Source of the DNA: Sneathiellales bacterium
GTDB taxonomy: Bacteria > Pseudomonadota > Alphaproteobacteria > JANQFL01
Reading direction: 5' to 3'
Assembly (NCBI GenBank): GCA_028277845.1
Contig: JANQFL010000092.1
Coordinates: 1-42,884 of the forward strand
Length of the DNA stretch: 42,884 bases
Shown here: piece by piece, positions 63 through 6,602 of the stretch
Numbering within the stretch: the first letter of the stretch is position 1
How the letters are laid out: every line of letters starts with the position of its first letter
Made by a program: the position numbers and the translations under genes
The notes under the pieces: model-generated
Seen by the model: only the letters and a program-made list of their open reading frames with translations
Told to the model about the DNA's origin: nothing
Database searches by the model: none

Positions 63-159
63 CTTGCGCGATGCACCACATCGCGCTGCCCCGTCTTCCT
101 GGTGGATGAGCAGGCCGCTCGAGAAACAGAATGGTTCCGTCTAAGGATGAAACGCTCTA
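63..159 (-). repeat. Dispersed gene-end repeat, copy 1 (full length)
   Basis: Read on the minus strand this 97-base unit begins TAGAGC, runs through a core containing ATTCTGTTTCTCGAGCGGCC, then a second module (CATCCACCAGGAAGACGGGG), and ends with a hairpin GCGCGATG-5 nt-CATCGCGC followed by AAG. It aligns almost base for base with 42787-42884, with one single-base indel. Its first three bases are the TAG stop codon of the regulator at 157-1143. Bases 1-62, beyond it, hold a perfect palindrome TTGGCGCCAA at 1-10 and an opposite-facing GAGCGGCC at 34-41, so the repeated unit may extend further outward. Its role is unknown; a 3'-end RNA structure or terminator is possible. Confidence 0.9.
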
Positions 160-1143
160 GGAGAACGTGTCTTTCGGATTTTTGCTTTGGCGGCGGGTTT
201 CGATTGGCGGATATCCAAAATACGTCCGGTAGGCGCGGCTGAGGATCGCCGCACTGGAAAAGCCCGTGCGAGCGGCGATATCAGCGACGGTCTGACCGGT
301 CTCCAGCAATAGATGCCGCGCCGCGCCGAGCCGCATTGCACGATAATACTGGGTTGGCGTAACGGCGAGCGTTGCGGCAAAAGAGCGCTCTAATCTGCGT
401 TGTGAGCAACCCGCACGCCGGGCAATCTCCGGAATGGCCAATGGGTCTTCCACGGCTTCTTCCATGACCGCGATGGCGCGCGCCACATCCGGCGCCCGGG
501 CAATAAATGGTGCGGACAGAGGGACGCGCTGCGGCAGTTCGGCCTGATGTTCGGTGTCGTAAAGAAACAACCGCATGACGTCGATCGCCAAAGCATCGCC
601 CAATCGTTCCCGCACCAGCCGCAACATCAGATCGAGAACGGCGGTCGCACCGCCGGCGGTGATGCGGTCACGGTCGCGGACGTAGCGTTCGCCGCTGACC
701 TCAATCTCGGGGAAGTCCTCTTCCAGCCGTGTCGACTCCTGCCAGTGGATGGTGGCGCGGTAGCCGTCCAGCAGGCCGGCATCGGCCAGCAGCCAAGGGC
801 CCGTATCGAGGCCGCCCAGCACCGGCACAGACCGCGCCGTGCGTCGCAGACGGGCCTTGAACGCCGACGTCGCGAAGCGGTCGTAGCCGTAGCTGGCGAT
901 CACGAAGAGAGCATCGCATCCACTCAACGACTCCAATCCGCCATCGACCGCGACGTGTACCGCGCTGGACGAGGCGACCGGTTCGCCGTCCATCGAAACC
1001 AGCGACCAGTGGTAGTGCGCGCCATCCGCCAAAGTATTGGCGGCGCGCAACGGTTCCACCGCGTTGGCAAGGCACAGGGTGCTGAACTCAGGCAGCAGGA
1101 GAAAGCCGAAACGCTGCAGCGGATTTGTCGAATGACGTGACAT
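157..1143 (-). CDS. cdhR: GlxA-family AraC transcriptional regulator, CdhR-like
   Basis: The 328-residue protein has an N-terminal DJ-1/PfpI-type (class I glutamine amidotransferase-like) ligand-binding domain over roughly the first 180 residues. A C-terminal AraC-type double helix-turn-helix follows (IPEIARRAGCSQRRLERSFA and VADIAARTGFSSAAILSRAY). This is the architecture of the carnitine and glycine-betaine regulators CdhR and GbdR. The gene is divergent from the DUF849 gene at 1221, as expected for a CdhR that activates a carnitine operon. I chose the ATG at 1143 because the frame continues upstream only to a TTG at 1161, and family members usually start a few residues before the RFGFLLLP strand. 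No clear Shine-Dalgarno is visible. The stop codon is supplied by repeat copy 1. The specific carnitine role is inferred from the neighbours. Confidence 0.88.
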   Translation of the reverse strand: MSRHSTNPLQRFGFLLLPEFSTLCLANAVEPLRAANTLADGAHYHWSLVSMDGEPVASSSAVHVAVDGGLESLSGCDALFVIASYGYDRFATSAFKARLRRTARSVPVLGGLDTGPWLLADAGLLDGYRATIHWQESTRLEEDFPEIEVSGERYVRDRDRITAGGATAVLDLMLRLVRERLGDALAIDVMRLFLYDTEHQAELPQRVPLSAPFIARAPDVARAIAVMEEAVEDPLAIPEIARRAGCSQRRLERSFAATLAVTPTQYYRAMRLGAARHLLLETGQTVADIAARTGFSSAAILSRAYRTYFGYPPIETRRQSKNPKDTFS

Positions 1144-1153
1144 ATTTGTCGAA
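1123..1153. promoter_or_regulatory. Direct-repeat operator candidate for the GlxA/AraC regulator
   Basis: Two identical 10-base units ATTTGTCGAA lie at 1123-1132 and 1144-1153. They are spaced 21 bases start to start, two helical turns, in direct orientation as AraC-family dimers prefer. One unit abuts the ATG of cdhR at 1143 and the other lies inside its first codons. The divergent cdhC gene begins at 1221. Binding here would place the regulator over its own start and upstream of cdhC, consistent with autoregulation plus activation. The repeats are seen directly; the operator role is inferred. Confidence 0.55.
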
Positions 1154-1220
1154 AAGTGCAAAGCGAACGGCCCATACTGCCCTTAACGTTATCCGATAAT
1201 CAACCGCAGGCGGGATCGAC

Positions 1221-2126
1221 ATGAACTGGGAGGTTTTCATCACGTGCGCCGTGACCGGCGCGGGGGACACGGCGGACAAAAGCGACAAGGTGCCGGTCAC
1301 GCCGGCCGAGATCGCCGATTCGGCCCTCGAGGCGGCGGAGGCGGGGGCGTCCATCGCCCACATCCACGTGCGCGATCCAGCAACCGGGACCGGCGCGCGC
1401 GATCCGGATCTTTACGCCGAAGTGGTCGAACGGGTACGGGCCGGCAATACGGACGTTGTGCTCAACCTGACCGCCGGCATGGGTGGCGATATGGTGTTCG
1501 GCTCGGCCGAGCAGCCACTGCCGCTGAACGAAGCGGGTACCGACATGGCGGGTGCGTTCGAGCGGCTCGACCATGTGCGCCGACTGTTGCCCGAGATCTG
1601 CACCCTGGATTGCGGCTCCATGAACTTCGCCGCGGGCGGCGACTACGTCATGACCAATACGCCGGACATGCTGCGCGCCATGGCCCGCGAAGTGCAGGCG
1701 CTCGGCGTGCGGCCCGAGATCGAGGTGTTCGACACCGGACATCTGGTGCTGGCCAAGCAACTGGTGGCGGAGGGGCTGATCGACGATCCGGTGATGATCC
1801 AGCTCTGCATGGGTATTCCCTATGGCGCGCCCGACGATCCGCGCACGCTGCAGGCCATGGCCGACGCGGTGCCGGACGAATGGGTGTTCTCGGCCTTTTC
1901 CATCGGCCGCATGCAGTTGCCGTATGTGGCTCAAGCGGTGCTGGCCGGCGGCAACGTGCGGGTGGGGCTCGAGGACAATCTCTATTTGTCGCGCGGCGAA
2001 CTGGCGAGCAACGGCCAACTGGTCGAACGGGCACGCATAATCCTCGAGGCCATGAACGTCCGCGTGATGGCGCCCGACGAAGTGCGCGACAAGCTCAATC
2101 TGGTCAAGCGAGGGCCGGGCACATGA
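1221..2126 (+). CDS. cdhC: DUF849 beta-keto acid cleavage enzyme, 3-dehydrocarnitine cleavage (CdhC-like)
   Basis: This 301-residue protein covers a complete BKACE/DUF849 TIM barrel. The zinc-binding HIH motif is visible (His47 and His49 in AHIHVRDP), as is the late acidic ligand in RVGLEDNLYL (Glu251). BKACE enzymes condense a beta-keto acid with acetyl-CoA and release acetoacetate plus a new CoA ester. In carnitine clusters the substrate is 3-dehydrocarnitine and the products are acetoacetate and betainyl-CoA. Substrate assignment rests on the CdhR-like regulator, the carnitine dehydrogenase-thioesterase at 3919 and the gamma-butyrobetaine dioxygenase at 5427. The start is preceded by AGGCGGG about 8 bases upstream. 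The stop overlaps the next gene's start (ATGA), indicating translational coupling. Confidence 0.88.
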   Translation: MNWEVFITCAVTGAGDTADKSDKVPVTPAEIADSALEAAEAGASIAHIHVRDPATGTGARDPDLYAEVVERVRAGNTDVVLNLTAGMGGDMVFGSAEQPLPLNEAGTDMAGAFERLDHVRRLLPEICTLDCGSMNFAAGGDYVMTNTPDMLRAMAREVQALGVRPEIEVFDTGHLVLAKQLVAEGLIDDPVMIQLCMGIPYGAPDDPRTLQAMADAVPDEWVFSAFSIGRMQLPYVAQAVLAGGNVRVGLEDNLYLSRGELASNGQLVERARIILEAMNVRVMAPDEVRDKLNLVKRGPGT

Positions 2127-2950
2127 GCGAACAGGACTTCAGCGCCTTCGGCCGTATGGAGCGGGACGGCTGGGCCGAACCGGAAACGGTGGCGGCCTAT
2201 GCCTCGGGCTTTGCCACGGCGACGGAGCAATGCGTGCCGGTGATGGTGGACGCCGTTCGAGCGCGGGGCGGGTCCACGGCCCTCGATCTGTGCTGCGGCC
2301 ATGGCATCATCGCCAAGGGTTTACATGAGGCGAACGCATCGGTGACGGGTCTCGACTTTTCGCCGGCCATGCTCGATCTTGCCCGCGACGCCGTACCGGG
2401 TGCCACGTTCCTCGAAGGCGATGCCACGGATTTACCGTTCGATGACACATCCTTCGACGCCGTGACCATGGGGTTCGGAATCCTGCACATTCCGGACTCA
2501 AAGAAAGCACTCACGGAAGCCCGGCGTATCCTGAAACCGGGCGGGCGTTTCGCCTATTCCGTCTGGCACGGACCCGAATTGTCTCCGGCCTTCCGCATCG
2601 TTTTCGGCGCCGTCGCGGAACACGGCGATCCAACGGTGGCCTTGCCGCCCGGACCGGCAATACACGATTATGCGGACCCTGACATTGCCTTTCCGGTGTT
2701 GGCCGAAGCCGGTTTTTCAGACCCGGTACTCACCACGGCCGACTGTCATTGGGTGGTCGCCGACCCGGCGACACCCGTGGATCATTTCATGCAGGGTACG
2801 GTACGCGGGGCGCATCTACTACGCTCCCAGCCGGCTGACAACCTGGCCGCCATCCGGGCCGCCGTCGGCGAGGCGGTGCGGAAAGAGTTCGGTCCCGACG
2901 CGCCGTTCCGCGTACCGATCCCGGCGGCCATCGTATCCGCGGTGGCGTAA
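2123..2950 (+). CDS. Class I SAM-dependent methyltransferase
   Basis: This 275-residue protein overlaps the cdhC stop by ATGA, so it is almost certainly co-translated with it. It shows the class I Rossmann methyltransferase motifs: motif I ALDLCCGHGIIA, an acidic strand end (VTGLDFSP), and the UbiE/MenG-like GDATDLPFDDTSFDAV with a following FGILHI segment. A longer reading from 1244 is only a frame that runs back through cdhC. The substrate is not evident. Its place inside a carnitine-degradation operon suggests an action on a betaine-related compound, but that is inference. Generic small-molecule methyltransferases of this type cannot be assigned from sequence alone. Confidence 0.85.
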   Translation: MSEQDFSAFGRMERDGWAEPETVAAYASGFATATEQCVPVMVDAVRARGGSTALDLCCGHGIIAKGLHEANASVTGLDFSPAMLDLARDAVPGATFLEGDATDLPFDDTSFDAVTMGFGILHIPDSKKALTEARRILKPGGRFAYSVWHGPELSPAFRIVFGAVAEHGDPTVALPPGPAIHDYADPDIAFPVLAEAGFSDPVLTTADCHWVVADPATPVDHFMQGTVRGAHLLRSQPADNLAAIRAAVGEAVRKEFGPDAPFRVPIPAAIVSAVA

Positions 2951-2959
2951 CCCGTGCGG

Positions 2960-3787
2960 CTAACGCGCCGAACGCCGCCGCGTCATGCCAAGGCCTGCCA
3001 GTCCGACGGCGAAGAGCGCCAACGTGCCGGGTTCGGGCACCGTGATAAGCGCATCGGGTATGTACGTGAAAGCGGCGACGCTTTGGTCGGGCGCCAGAGG
3101 TGTGTCAAAGGCGTCGATGAACGAGTTGTTCAGGTTGATGAGGTCGTTCAGCGTGTCGAAGCGCGTCACAATCTGCCCGTTGGCGCCGCCAGGGTCCAGT
3201 TCGGTGATCAAGTAATAGTGGCTGCCGTCGAAGGTCAGGCCGCCGATGCTCTGGTCAAAGGCGAGGGTGGCCATGGAGTGAAGACCGGAGCTGTTCAAGG
3301 CGATCAAGTCGGCCAGGGAATCGTAGACAGCGAGGAGTTGGCTGTTGGCGCTGCCGGGGTCCAACTCGGTGATCATGATGTATTGGCTGCCGTTGTAGGT
3401 CAGCCCGCGGATACTTTGATCGAACGCCAGCGTCGCCATCGCATGAATGGTGCCGCCGCTCAACGAGACCAAATCGGCATAGGAATTGTAGACGCCGAGC
3501 AGTTGTGTGTTAACGCCGCCGGGGTCCGATTCGGTGATCAGAATGAACTGGCTGCCGTCGTAAGTCAGTCCGCCGATGCTTTGATCCGGCGCCACAGGCC
3601 CGAAGGACTCAAGATTCAGTCCGTTCAGGGCGATCACGTCGGGGATCGATGCGTATTGGTTAATCAGCTGGCCGTTGGCGCTGCCCGGATCCAGCTCGGT
3701 GATCAGCGAAAAGACAGGGGCCGCCACCGCTTTGAACGAGAAGACGATCGTGACACTCGCAAGCAACAAAACGTTTCTAATCGACAT
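2960..3787 (-). CDS. PEP-CTERM-sorted secreted protein with four 55-residue repeats
   Basis: The start ATG at 3787 gives a 275-residue precursor with an N-terminal signal peptide (MSIRNVLLLASVTIVFSFKAVAA). Four consecutive repeats of exactly 55 residues follow, each opening with a [L/I]ITE.DPG motif and ending near DQSIGGLTYDGS. The C-terminus is a textbook PEP-CTERM sorting signal: VPEPG, a hydrophobic segment and a basic tail (TRRRSAR). Known PEP-CTERM proteins are processed by an exosortase (EpsH-type) and associated with extracellular polysaccharide. No exosortase gene is in this window. The gene lies antisense between two parts of the carnitine island, only 9 bases past the methyltransferase stop. 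Its function is unknown. Confidence 0.85.
   Translation of the reverse strand: MSIRNVLLLASVTIVFSFKAVAAPVFSLITELDPGSANGQLINQYASIPDVIALNGLNLESFGPVAPDQSIGGLTYDGSQFILITESDPGGVNTQLLGVYNSYADLVSLSGGTIHAMATLAFDQSIRGLTYNGSQYIMITELDPGSANSQLLAVYDSLADLIALNSSGLHSMATLAFDQSIGGLTFDGSHYYLITELDPGGANGQIVTRFDTLNDLINLNNSFIDAFDTPLAPDQSVAAFTYIPDALITVPEPGTLALFAVGLAGLGMTRRRSAR
3053..3712 (-). repeat. Four tandem 165-base coding repeats in the PEP-CTERM gene
   Basis: The translated region divides into four units of 55 residues with no gaps, which is 165 bases each. The most alike units are the second and third, sharing LLxVY, HxMATLAFDQSIxGLT and similar blocks. The fourth is the most diverged (AFDTPLAPDQSVAAFTY). 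The spacing is invariant, so duplication was by whole units. Units this uniform resemble beta-strand or propeller blades, but no fold is assigned. Confidence 0.85.
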
Positions 3788-3854
3788 AATCAAACACCAC
3801 CCTATTGGAACGAACTCCGCATCGCCGGGTTGAAGGCGACCAACGATAAGAAAC

Positions 3855-3878
3855 ATCCCGGGCGGGATACTTGTACAA
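3855..3878. promoter_or_regulatory. Paired palindromes between the PEP-CTERM gene and cdhA
   Basis: In the divergent region before cdhA (3919) two palindromes lie two bases apart: ATCCCG-GG-CGGGAT at 3855-3868 and TTGTACAA at 3871-3878. They are 40-65 bases upstream of the cdhA start and about 70-90 bases from the PEP-CTERM start, a position suited to an operator. No regulator can be named. Confidence 0.3.
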
Positions 3879-3918
3879 AACGGCCATCCGGTGGCCGGCC
3901 TGGCATAGGGAGGGCCGG

Positions 3919-5412
3919 ATGAGCGTCGCCGGCATCCGCCAGGCCGCCTGTATCGGCGGTGGTGTCATCGGTGCCGGGTGGGCGGCCCGGTTGGCCTGGC
4001 ACGGCATCGATGTGACTGTTTGCGATCCACATCCCGAGGCCGAGCGGCGCGTCCGCACGGTCATTGAAAACGCCGAGAGAGCGCTCACCCAACTTTGGGG
4101 CGGACCGGTGAGTGAACGGGGCGCCGTCAACTTCACGGATGACATCGAAATTGCCGTAAAAGATGCTGATATCATTCAGGAAAGTGCGCCAGAGAATATG
4201 GCGGTCAAACACGCCATTTTGGCCGAAGTCGACCGCTATGCGTCGGCTGAAGCGCTGGTTTGCACGTCCACGTCGGGCCTGCGGCCGACGGAATTGCAGT
4301 CGGTCATGGAGCGGCCGGGACGTTTCCTCGTGGGCCATCCGTTCAACCCGGTTTATCTGCTGCCCCTGGTCGAAGTGTGCGGCGGTGATCGAACCGACTC
4401 GGAGAGTATCGAACGGGCCATGGCAGTATACCGCGCGCTTGGCATGCAGCCCCTGCACGTGCGGACCGAAATCGACGGCTTCCTCGCCGACCGGCTGATG
4501 GAAGCCCTGTGGCGCGAGGCGCTCTGGCTGGTCAACGACGACGTTGCCACGGTGGCCGAGGTCGACGACGCCATCCGCTACGGCGCCGGTTTGCGCTGGG
4601 CCATGATGGGCACCTTCATGACCTACCGCATCGCCGGCGGCGAGGGCGGCATGCGCCACTTCATCAGCCAATTCGGACCGGCACTGCAGTGGCCATGGAC
4701 CAAACTGACGGATGTGCCGGAAATGACCGACGCCTTGATCGACAAGATCGCCGGCCAATCGGACATACAGGCCGACGGTGCCGACGTGCGCGACCTGGAA
4801 CGTCAGCGCGACGATGGACTGGTCGCCATCCTGCAGGCGCTGAAACCCCACGGTATCGGCGCGGGCGCGGTGGTGGCCGCACAGGAGAGGGCACGGGTCG
4901 GCGCCCGCGCGGCCGAGACGCCGGACCTGTCGCGCGCCCAGCCGCTGCGTCTGCATACGGCGCAAGTGCTTCCCGGGTGGACCGATTACAACGGTCATAT
5001 GACCGAATACCGCTATTTGCAGGTGTTCGGCGATGCCGCCGACGCCCTGTTCGCGGCCATCGGTGTCGATGCGGCGTACCTTGATGCCGGACACAGCTAT
5101 TACACGGTGGAAAGCCACTTGCGCCACCTGGCGGAAGCGTCGGCGGGGGAGGCGCTGCACGTGGAGACCCAGCTGCTGAGCCACGACGCCAAGCGCCTGC
5201 ACGTCTTTCATCGCCTGATCGGTTCTGACGGCGGCACTCCGGTAGCTACCGCCGAGCAGATGTATCTGCATGTGAACACGGAGAGCGGACGCACCTGTCC
5301 GGCGCCCGCCGAAGTGATGGACCGGCTGCAGACACTGTCCGCGGCCCATGTCGGGCTGCCGTGGCCCGACGGCGCCGGCCGGTCCGTCGGTCTGTCAAAG
5401 AACAGGACTTGA
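3919..5412 (+). CDS. cdhA: L-carnitine dehydrogenase / betainyl-CoA thioesterase fusion
   Basis: The ATG at 3919 follows AGGGAGGG and gives 497 residues. The N-terminal ~320 residues are a 3-hydroxyacyl-CoA dehydrogenase-like NAD enzyme. It has the dinucleotide motif GGGVIGAG (residues 13-20), the STSGLRPTELQ loop and HPFNPVYLLPLVEV, as in L-carnitine 3-dehydrogenase. From about residue 340 a 4HBT hot-dog thioesterase domain follows (PGWTDYNGHMTEYRYL, around residues 351-366), matching the separate CdhB thioesterase of pseudomonads. The two halves would oxidise carnitine to 3-dehydrocarnitine and hydrolyse betainyl-CoA to glycine betaine, acting on either side of the CdhC reaction. Such fusions are known in alphaproteobacteria. 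The dioxygenase gene begins 14 bases downstream. Confidence 0.9.
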   Translation: MSVAGIRQAACIGGGVIGAGWAARLAWHGIDVTVCDPHPEAERRVRTVIENAERALTQLWGGPVSERGAVNFTDDIEIAVKDADIIQESAPENMAVKHAILAEVDRYASAEALVCTSTSGLRPTELQSVMERPGRFLVGHPFNPVYLLPLVEVCGGDRTDSESIERAMAVYRALGMQPLHVRTEIDGFLADRLMEALWREALWLVNDDVATVAEVDDAIRYGAGLRWAMMGTFMTYRIAGGEGGMRHFISQFGPALQWPWTKLTDVPEMTDALIDKIAGQSDIQADGADVRDLERQRDDGLVAILQALKPHGIGAGAVVAAQERARVGARAAETPDLSRAQPLRLHTAQVLPGWTDYNGHMTEYRYLQVFGDAADALFAAIGVDAAYLDAGHSYYTVESHLRHLAEASAGEALHVETQLLSHDAKRLHVFHRLIGSDGGTPVATAEQMYLHVNTESGRTCPAPAEVMDRLQTLSAAHVGLPWPDGAGRSVGLSKNRT

Positions 5413-5426
5413 GTGGAGCCATTGTC

Positions 5427-6602
5427 ATGACCGAACTCGCACCCATTCCCGATTTCAACGTCTATCCGGTACGCGCCACGATCGAGCGGGCCGAATCCTG
5501 GGACACCGGTGCGCAAGTGTTTTGGAGCGACGGGCACGTCAGCCGCTATCACGGCCTGTGGCTGCGCGACAACTGCCCGTGCGCCGAATGCGTCAATCCG
5601 GAAACGCTGGAACAGGTGTTCGACATCTCGACCGTGCCCGACGACCTTGCCGCCGCCTCGGTGGCGGTGGACGATGCCGGTTCGCTGACGGTCGCATGGC
5701 CCGATGGCCACACCAGCCGCCATCATCCCGGCTGGTTGCGGGCCCATTGCTATTCCGCGCCGCCTGTGGTCGAGGGGATGGTGCAAAGCTGGGGCAGCGA
5801 TTTCGTCGTTCCGGAATTCGACGGCCGCGACGTGCTCGACAATGACGACGCGTTGCTGGCCTGGCTCGAAGCCCTGCATGCCCACGGCCTGGCATTGCTG
5901 CGGAACTGCCCGTTGGACGATGGGTCCGTCGAGTGGTTCGCCGATCGCATTTCGTTTCTGCGTCAGACCAACTTCGGCCGGGTCTTCGACGTGATGACCA
6001 AGGCCGATCCCGATTCCAGTGCCTATCTGTCTATCGAGCTGCCGCTGCATGTGGACCTGCCGACCCGCGAGTTGCAACCCGGCCTGCAATTCCTGCTCTG
6101 TCATGTCAATAACGCGTCCGGCGGCGACAGCATCATGGCTGACGGGTTCCGCATTGCCGAGACCCTGCGCGACGAGGAACCACATCACTTTAAGGTTCTG
6201 TCAACCCTACCCATGGAGTTCCGCAACCGGGCCAAGACCAGCGACTACCGTCAGCGGGTGCCGGCGATTCGCCTGAACGATGACGGGTCCATTCATGAAA
6301 TCCGCGTCGGCAACTTTCTGCGCGGGCCTCAGCACGTGGATGAGGCCGACATGCCCAGGCTGTATGCCGCCTACCGCCGCTTCATCGCCATGACCAGGGA
6401 AGACCGTTTTCGCGTTACGTTTCGGTTGGATAGCGGCATCATGGCTACATTCGACAATCGCCGTGTCCTGCATGCCAGGACGGCATTTGATCCTGCCAGC
6501 GGCGATCGACGCTTGCAGGGCTGCTACATAGATACGGACGAATTGAATTCAAGGTTACGTATCCTGCGGCGCATGGCCGCACGCGCGCATGCATCGGCCT
6601 GA
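5427..6602 (+). CDS. Gamma-butyrobetaine dioxygenase (TauD/BBOX family)
   Basis: Starting at the ATG at 5427, the protein is 391 residues, the family's usual length. The N-terminal zinc module is complete: CPCAEC (Cys50, Cys52, Cys55) plus a histidine in SRHHPGW (residues 98-102). The catalytic Fe(II)/2-oxoglutarate domain has HVD (His208, Asp210), a distal His349 in VLHARTAF, and a 2-oxoglutarate-binding arginine in GDRRLQG (361-362). The reaction is hydroxylation of gamma-butyrobetaine to L-carnitine. That feeds the dehydrogenase encoded immediately upstream, so the operon can use gamma-butyrobetaine as well as carnitine. Trimethyllysine dioxygenase is a close relative, but the bacterial context favours butyrobetaine. 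Confidence 0.9.
   Translation: MTELAPIPDFNVYPVRATIERAESWDTGAQVFWSDGHVSRYHGLWLRDNCPCAECVNPETLEQVFDISTVPDDLAAASVAVDDAGSLTVAWPDGHTSRHHPGWLRAHCYSAPPVVEGMVQSWGSDFVVPEFDGRDVLDNDDALLAWLEALHAHGLALLRNCPLDDGSVEWFADRISFLRQTNFGRVFDVMTKADPDSSAYLSIELPLHVDLPTRELQPGLQFLLCHVNNASGGDSIMADGFRIAETLRDEEPHHFKVLSTLPMEFRNRAKTSDYRQRVPAIRLNDDGSIHEIRVGNFLRGPQHVDEADMPRLYAAYRRFIAMTREDRFRVTFRLDSGIMATFDNRRVLHARTAFDPASGDRRLQGCYIDTDELNSRLRILRRMAARAHASA

Follow-up and report, generated by a model that had tools for sequence, protein, structure and literature searches.

The gene at positions 2960–3787 (minus strand) of the Sneathiellales contig JANQFL010000092.1 probably encodes a stand-alone substrate of exosortase A (XrtA) with a compact four-bladed β-propeller for surface or matrix binding, inserted among carnitine genes without having a carnitine role. 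We refer to the whole 42,884-nucleotide stretch of DNA that was analyzed as the window. The gene and its parts are as follows.

2960–3787, minus strand: PEP-CTERM repeat protein gene, 275-aa ORF
3719–3787, minus strand: signal-peptide-like N-terminus, residues 1–23 (hydropathy peak of 2.1 over residues 6–21)
3554–3718, minus strand: repeat unit 1, 55 aa, residues 24–78 (self-comparison)
3389–3553, minus strand: repeat unit 2, 55 aa, residues 79–133 (self-comparison)
3224–3388, minus strand: repeat unit 3, 55 aa, residues 134–188 (self-comparison)
3056–3223, minus strand: repeat unit 4, 56 aa, residues 189–244, with one extra residue (repeat alignment and AlphaFold2 model)
2975–3043, minus strand: PEP-CTERM tail with PEP motif, hydrophobic helix and RRR (PF07589, TIGR02595)

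Self-comparison of the window protein gave rise to peaks at offsets of 55 and 110 residues. The score at offset 55 was 320 (versus −32 for the best of 200 shuffles), with 83 identities over 220 positions. An earlier note on this DNA had described four gapless 55-residue repeats; four repeats are indeed present and units 1–3 are exactly 55 residues long, but unit 4 contains one additional residue. The PEP-CTERM sorting tail recognized in the same note scores above the curated cut-offs of both Pfam (PF07589, 29.8 bits; cut-off 20.7) and NCBIfam (TIGR02595, 24.5 bits; cut-off 16). The N-terminus is hydrophobic, with a helix predicted by AlphaFold2 at residues 4–15, and the domain that XrtA would release (~225 residues) has a very low pI (4.05) and contains no cysteine. 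Pfam and NCBIfam scans of the window protein and four relatives, which bear on a refuting condition set in the earlier note, gave no named family above cut-off beyond the tail and no model spanning the repeats, and the Pfam scans of these proteins gave no match to PF00045 (hemopexin) at E ≤ 1. PDB sequence searches yielded nothing significant (best E of 0.2 for one, none for the other). An ORF on the opposite strand (2954–3922) was rejected as a gene because homology, signal and tail all lie on the minus strand; GC3 of its frame is 0.56, compared with 0.79 for the minus-strand gene.

The structure predicted by AlphaFold2 from the window protein and three relatives (pLDDT 77.1, pTM 0.73) contains 16 strands arranged in four blades and closed by the terminal strands, the order being B-C-helix-D, A-B-C-helix-D (three times) and lastly A. 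One 55-residue repeat contributes four strands plus a short helix. In the model, the final strand of unit 4 joins those at the N-terminus to complete the ring. The model of an Accumulibacter homologue (31% identical) has the same order of elements (pLDDT 64.8, pTM 0.62); both models rest on four-sequence alignments and are of moderate confidence (pTM 0.73 and 0.62). The fold prediction that the earlier note had suggested for the repeats thus returned a closed four-bladed ring.

Structure searches point to the same fold class. Foldseek matches were mostly β-propellers, with TM-scores of ~0.2–0.4 and a best E of 4e-4. With VIA-align, the best match to the window model was an apyrase (Z of 10.6), and the best match to the Accumulibacter model was a levan-utilisation protein (Z of 10.9), tied with the hemopexin domain of MMP-1 (Z of 10.7, 3.6 Å over 157 residues); the MMP-12 hemopexin domain followed at a Z of 10.0 (4.4 Å over 163 residues). 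Hemopexin was not among the 50 matches listed for the window model. Hemopexin-type propellers have four blades of about 45–55 residues with terminal closure. The predicted fold resembles those of MMP-1 and MMP-12 in having four blades and terminal closure, and differs from them in the short helix modeled between the third and fourth strands and in the lack of a PF00045 sequence match in the window protein and its relatives. The hemopexin domains of MMP-1 and MMP-12 are four-bladed and some of the matched enzymes five-bladed; since the five-bladed enzymes score as high as hemopexin against the models, the assignment of exactly four blades depends on the number of repeats and on the closure. On the predicted structures, assignment to the β-propeller class is well supported, and the body of the protein is probably a small four-bladed propeller. 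We found no description of a four-bladed PEP-CTERM propeller in the open-licence literature.

It is unlikely that the repeats instead form an elongated or open, β-solenoid-like adhesin, or assemble across subunits, rather than closing into a four-bladed ring. The moderate confidence of the models leaves room for such a form, as does the prospect that copy number may vary among other members (three units at locus L037, gapped sequences at L066 and L067), the three 51-residue units of L037 fitting a strict four poorly. Against it stand the 16 strands, whose order is permuted so that in both models blade 1 is completed by the C-terminal strand, the predominance of propellers among the structure matches, and the presence of exactly four units in all five complete close members.

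With the closed four-bladed propeller as the preferred form, the units themselves carry a record of how the repeats evolved. The five complete members have four units each, of 55, 55, 55, 58 and 56 residues (L066 and L067 were left out of this count owing to assembly gaps). Mean identity among units within a protein is 51–91%, compared with 26–67% between proteins over all pairs, and every protein has a higher mean identity among its own units than with those of another protein; three of the four Nitrosomonas units and two of the four Accumulibacter units entered this comparison. Within the family, divergence among units is greatest in the window protein (mean identity of 51%, compared with 70–91% inside other members). 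From changes in length common to all units of one protein, we infer that units were homogenised or re-amplified within lineages, with unit number staying at four. Newly amplified β-propellers with near-identical blades (PMC9218822) offer a parallel: in the present family, units are closer within than between proteins, the pattern that amplifying a single blade again and again would produce. A difference is the copy number, which here is four in every complete close member. Neither 'PEP-CTERM' nor 'four-bladed' occurs in the text of PMC9218822.

Relatives of the window protein are few. The earlier note had proposed a search for further proteins with the 55-residue repeat, and this search returned one paralogue in the genome and relatives in other lineages. 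The paralogue (C2:14451–15257) has the same four units and is 42% identical to the window protein. Among the 19 PEP-CTERM genes of the genome with resolved starts, tandem-repeat offset scores were 320 for the window protein, 640 for the paralogue and at most 1 for the other 17. Searches with the single protein found no relative in a collection of contigs from other genomes and only the genome itself in a sample of 190 related genomes; viral contigs and plasmids gave no match. In the contig collection, a two-sequence profile detected loci in six named genomes: those of Pelagibius, Nitrosomonas, Accumulibacter (two), Sedimenticola and Denitrobaculum (a remnant). Of 385 sampled genomes of the class, matches at E ≤ 1e-4 occurred in 18; as we read them, those in three (the genome itself, G334 and G115) covered the repeats, the others lying mainly at the tail end of the profile. 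G334 is presumably Denitrobaculum, since the same remnant is found at its locus L036. In a phylum sample of 398 genomes, two matched, the genome itself and that of L071; the translated ORF at L071 has a PEP-CTERM tail without such repeats. These repeat proteins are a rare, unnamed family, and the relatives of the gene stand alone in unrelated contexts.

Several other loci came to light in these searches. In the distant PEP-CTERM protein encoded at L037 (1501–2064, G115), a 51-residue unit occurs three times almost unchanged. L069 (7869–8354, Denitrobaculum tricleocarpae) is the remnant of a four-blade gene in a neighbourhood resembling that of the intact Pelagibius gene, which indicates that the four-blade gene can be lost. 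The PEP-CTERM protein of L018 (G000:C122, tail at 106000–106068) contains WDGTN-type stretches and may likewise form a propeller; offset self-comparison found no fixed-length tandem repeat in it. L019 (784–2574; G000:C2, ~296966–298756) is a single open frame with two PEP-CTERM tails (one at residues 240–264, one close to the C-terminus), resembling a fusion of two PEP-CTERM proteins.

The earlier note had remarked that no exosortase accompanies the gene. This is correct for the window, and mistaken as a worry about the genome: the search set as a test located one exosortase (E of 4.6e-67) on another contig (C23), an exosortase A scoring 337.7 bits against a cut-off of 208. The exosortase A has an EpsI domain, and the region around it on C23 encodes PrsK, PrsR, PrsT, an EpsB_2 glycosyltransferase, an XrtA-type export protein, a TIGR03087 glycosyltransferase and an exosortase acyltransferase, all above their cut-offs. 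Exopolysaccharide genes are present on this contig beside exosortase A and PrsK/PrsR/PrsT. Twenty PEP-CTERM tails score above cut-off in the genome. An exosortase was above cut-off in all seven of the other carrier genomes tested and in 44 of the 385 genomes of the class sample; each of the three carriers that belong to the sample encodes an exosortase (Fisher p of 0.0014). The window gene matches the XrtA (EpsH) substrates described by Haft et al. (2006, PMC1569441) in its signal-like N-terminus, PEP motif, hydrophobic helix and basic end, in a genome with XrtA-PrsK-PrsR-PrsT, in being a lone gene and in its slight similarity to named domains. It differs from that description in its four-fold tandem repeat, for which there is no Pfam or NCBIfam model.

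By analogy with its family, the protein would be exported via the putative signal peptide, retained at the inner membrane through the PEP-CTERM helix, and cleaved and sorted by XrtA. The released domain is predicted to fold as a four-bladed propeller in which the C-terminal strand completes the blade begun at the N-terminus, and it would probably serve as a binding domain, either on the cell surface or within the exopolysaccharide matrix. The surface role raised in the earlier note is thus plausible, the propeller domain being perhaps a matrix- or ligand-binding module.

The window gene also differs from most PEP-CTERM genes of its own genome in lacking a recognizable regulatory box. The published box is a GG-N10-GC σ54 promoter with TTTACA ~63 nt upstream, and in PMC1569441 it is common without being defining (99 of 167 genes). 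A σ54-like site matching at least 9 of 11 positions precedes 11 of 19 PEP-CTERM genes of the genome, and in several of these TTTACA lies close to the expected distance. The count covers 19 of the 20 tails, as L019 and L020 belong to a single open frame and L020 was omitted; start codons were picked by eye. The best site is 7/11 for both the window gene (shuffle p of 0.97, box not recognized) and the paralogue (shuffle p of 0.93), and 6/11 for the Pelagibius relative, where the box was likewise not recognized. The chance that the window gene and its paralogue both fall among the eight of 19 without a good site is about 0.16, which makes the σ54 result weak alone. All four beta/gammaproteobacterial members (L065, L066, L067, L068) have TTTACA 62–64 nt before the best σ54-like site, two of these sites (8/11) being no better than shuffles alone; TTTACA at the expected spacing is absent in the three alphaproteobacterial members. 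This pattern, suggestive only, may mean that PrsR control of the family was lost in the alphaproteobacterial branch.

It is improbable that the gene is an inserted surface gene now in decay and without function. The remnant state of the Denitrobaculum homologue, the divergence of the window repeats and the unrecognized PrsR/σ54 box would suit decay, but the ORF is intact with signal, four units and tail, and its GC3 is like that of its neighbours (0.79, compared with 0.72–0.83). dN/dS is 0.43 versus the paralogue and 0.31 versus the Pelagibius relative (dS near saturation) and 0.22–0.38 among units 1–3 of the protein itself. These values point to purifying constraint on the window gene.

The gene lies within a carnitine locus with the following neighbours.

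157–1161, minus strand: DJ-1/PfpI-AraC type regulator, GbdR-like (below the cut-off of the GbdR model)
1221–2126, plus strand: β-keto acid cleavage enzyme (BKACE) of the carnitine locus (Pfam)
2123–2950, plus strand: class I SAM methyltransferase, overlapping the BKACE stop by 4 nt and converging on the PEP-CTERM gene, 9 nt apart
3788–3918, no strand: 131-bp divergent region between the PEP-CTERM gene and CDH, no σ54/PrsR box recognized
3919–5412, plus strand: carnitine 3-dehydrogenase (CDH)/thioesterase fusion (706 bits; cut-off 592)
5430–6602, plus strand: γ-butyrobetaine dioxygenase-like protein (382.9 bits, below the cut-off of 414.75)

The gene had been said to split the carnitine genes. 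It does lie antisense between BKACE and CDH, but two genes split them, the methyltransferase gene (2123–2950, plus strand) as well. CDH homologues were sought in the 385 class genomes (52 with matches at E ≤ 1e-80), and loci were examined in 30 of these, the window's own included, leaving 29 others. The comparison of gene order, proposed in the earlier note, found BKACE directly before CDH in 20 of the 29, with gaps of −14 to 57 bp. In three, BKACE is on the same strand 520–784 bp from CDH with another gene between (presumably two lipocalins and one DUF1203 protein); five have no BKACE in the examined flank, and one is cut by a contig end. The carnitine loci of Pelagibius and Denitrobaculum, the latter also among the 29, have BKACE and CDH abutting. 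Within about 1.5 kb on each side, neither the methyltransferase gene nor the PEP-CTERM gene occurs in any of the 29 other loci, and at 14 loci from 12 other genomes no carnitine genes flank methyltransferase homologues. From gene order, the 1.8-kb block of these two genes is best read as a derived addition in this lineage, the PEP-CTERM gene having presumably been added beside the methyltransferase gene. The insertion suspected in the earlier note thus fits the gene order (gene in 0/29, flanks abutting in 20/29), but its GC3 is like that of the neighbours, so it is not obviously recent.

Other extra genes occupy the BKACE-CDH junction at L098, L102 and L105 (lipocalin-like, or an antisense gene), which indicates that the junction tolerates insertions. 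A pair of flanking repeats (2100–2118 and 3900–3918, 15 of 19 matching, 1,800 bp apart) was rejected as insertion scars and is probably chance or ribosome-binding-site-like. Promoter and terminator scans were no richer than shuffles, and there were no Rfam matches.

Least probable of all is that the protein belongs functionally to the carnitine locus, for example as a surface or periplasmic binder of carnitine or betaine sharing the divergent region with CDH: the gene does lie between BKACE and CDH with that 131-bp region in common, and the Denitrobaculum and Pelagibius members are on the carnitine-locus contig (about 42 and 64 kb away), but the gene is missing from all 29 other carnitine loci within about 1.5 kb on each side, four of the six carriers searched for CDH (Nitrosomonas, Accumulibacter, Sedimenticola and G115) have no CDH match at E ≤ 1e-20, and the AraC-BKACE and PEP-CDH intergenic regions have no common motif beyond shuffles. 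PEP-CTERM genes are mostly single-gene units, according to published work. The role tied to this locus that the earlier note had suggested lacks support, given the solitary relatives elsewhere, the lack of a common regulatory motif and the usual solitude of PEP-CTERM genes, and the placement among carnitine-breakdown genes looks accidental.

The oddity of the find came from the carnitine tie, which lacks support; as a lone exosortase substrate the gene is of an ordinary kind, and what makes it interesting is its fold and the invariant number of units rather than where it lies. PEP-CTERM proteins act in flocs and biofilms, and most have no recognized domain. For wastewater Accumulibacter they are reported in granules (PMC12019908), and the present family also occurs in these wastewater bacteria. 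A predicted compact fold for one family offers a soluble, cysteine-free domain that could be tested for binding of polysaccharide or metal. The blades provide an example of concerted evolution in which copy number does not change. Tentatively, and with more doubt than for the single protein, we suggest an unnamed family of exosortase-sorted four-bladed propellers with a matrix-binding function, whose lineages re-homogenise their blades while the count stays fixed at four. If this is true, the family would be a natural test of what fixes blade number.
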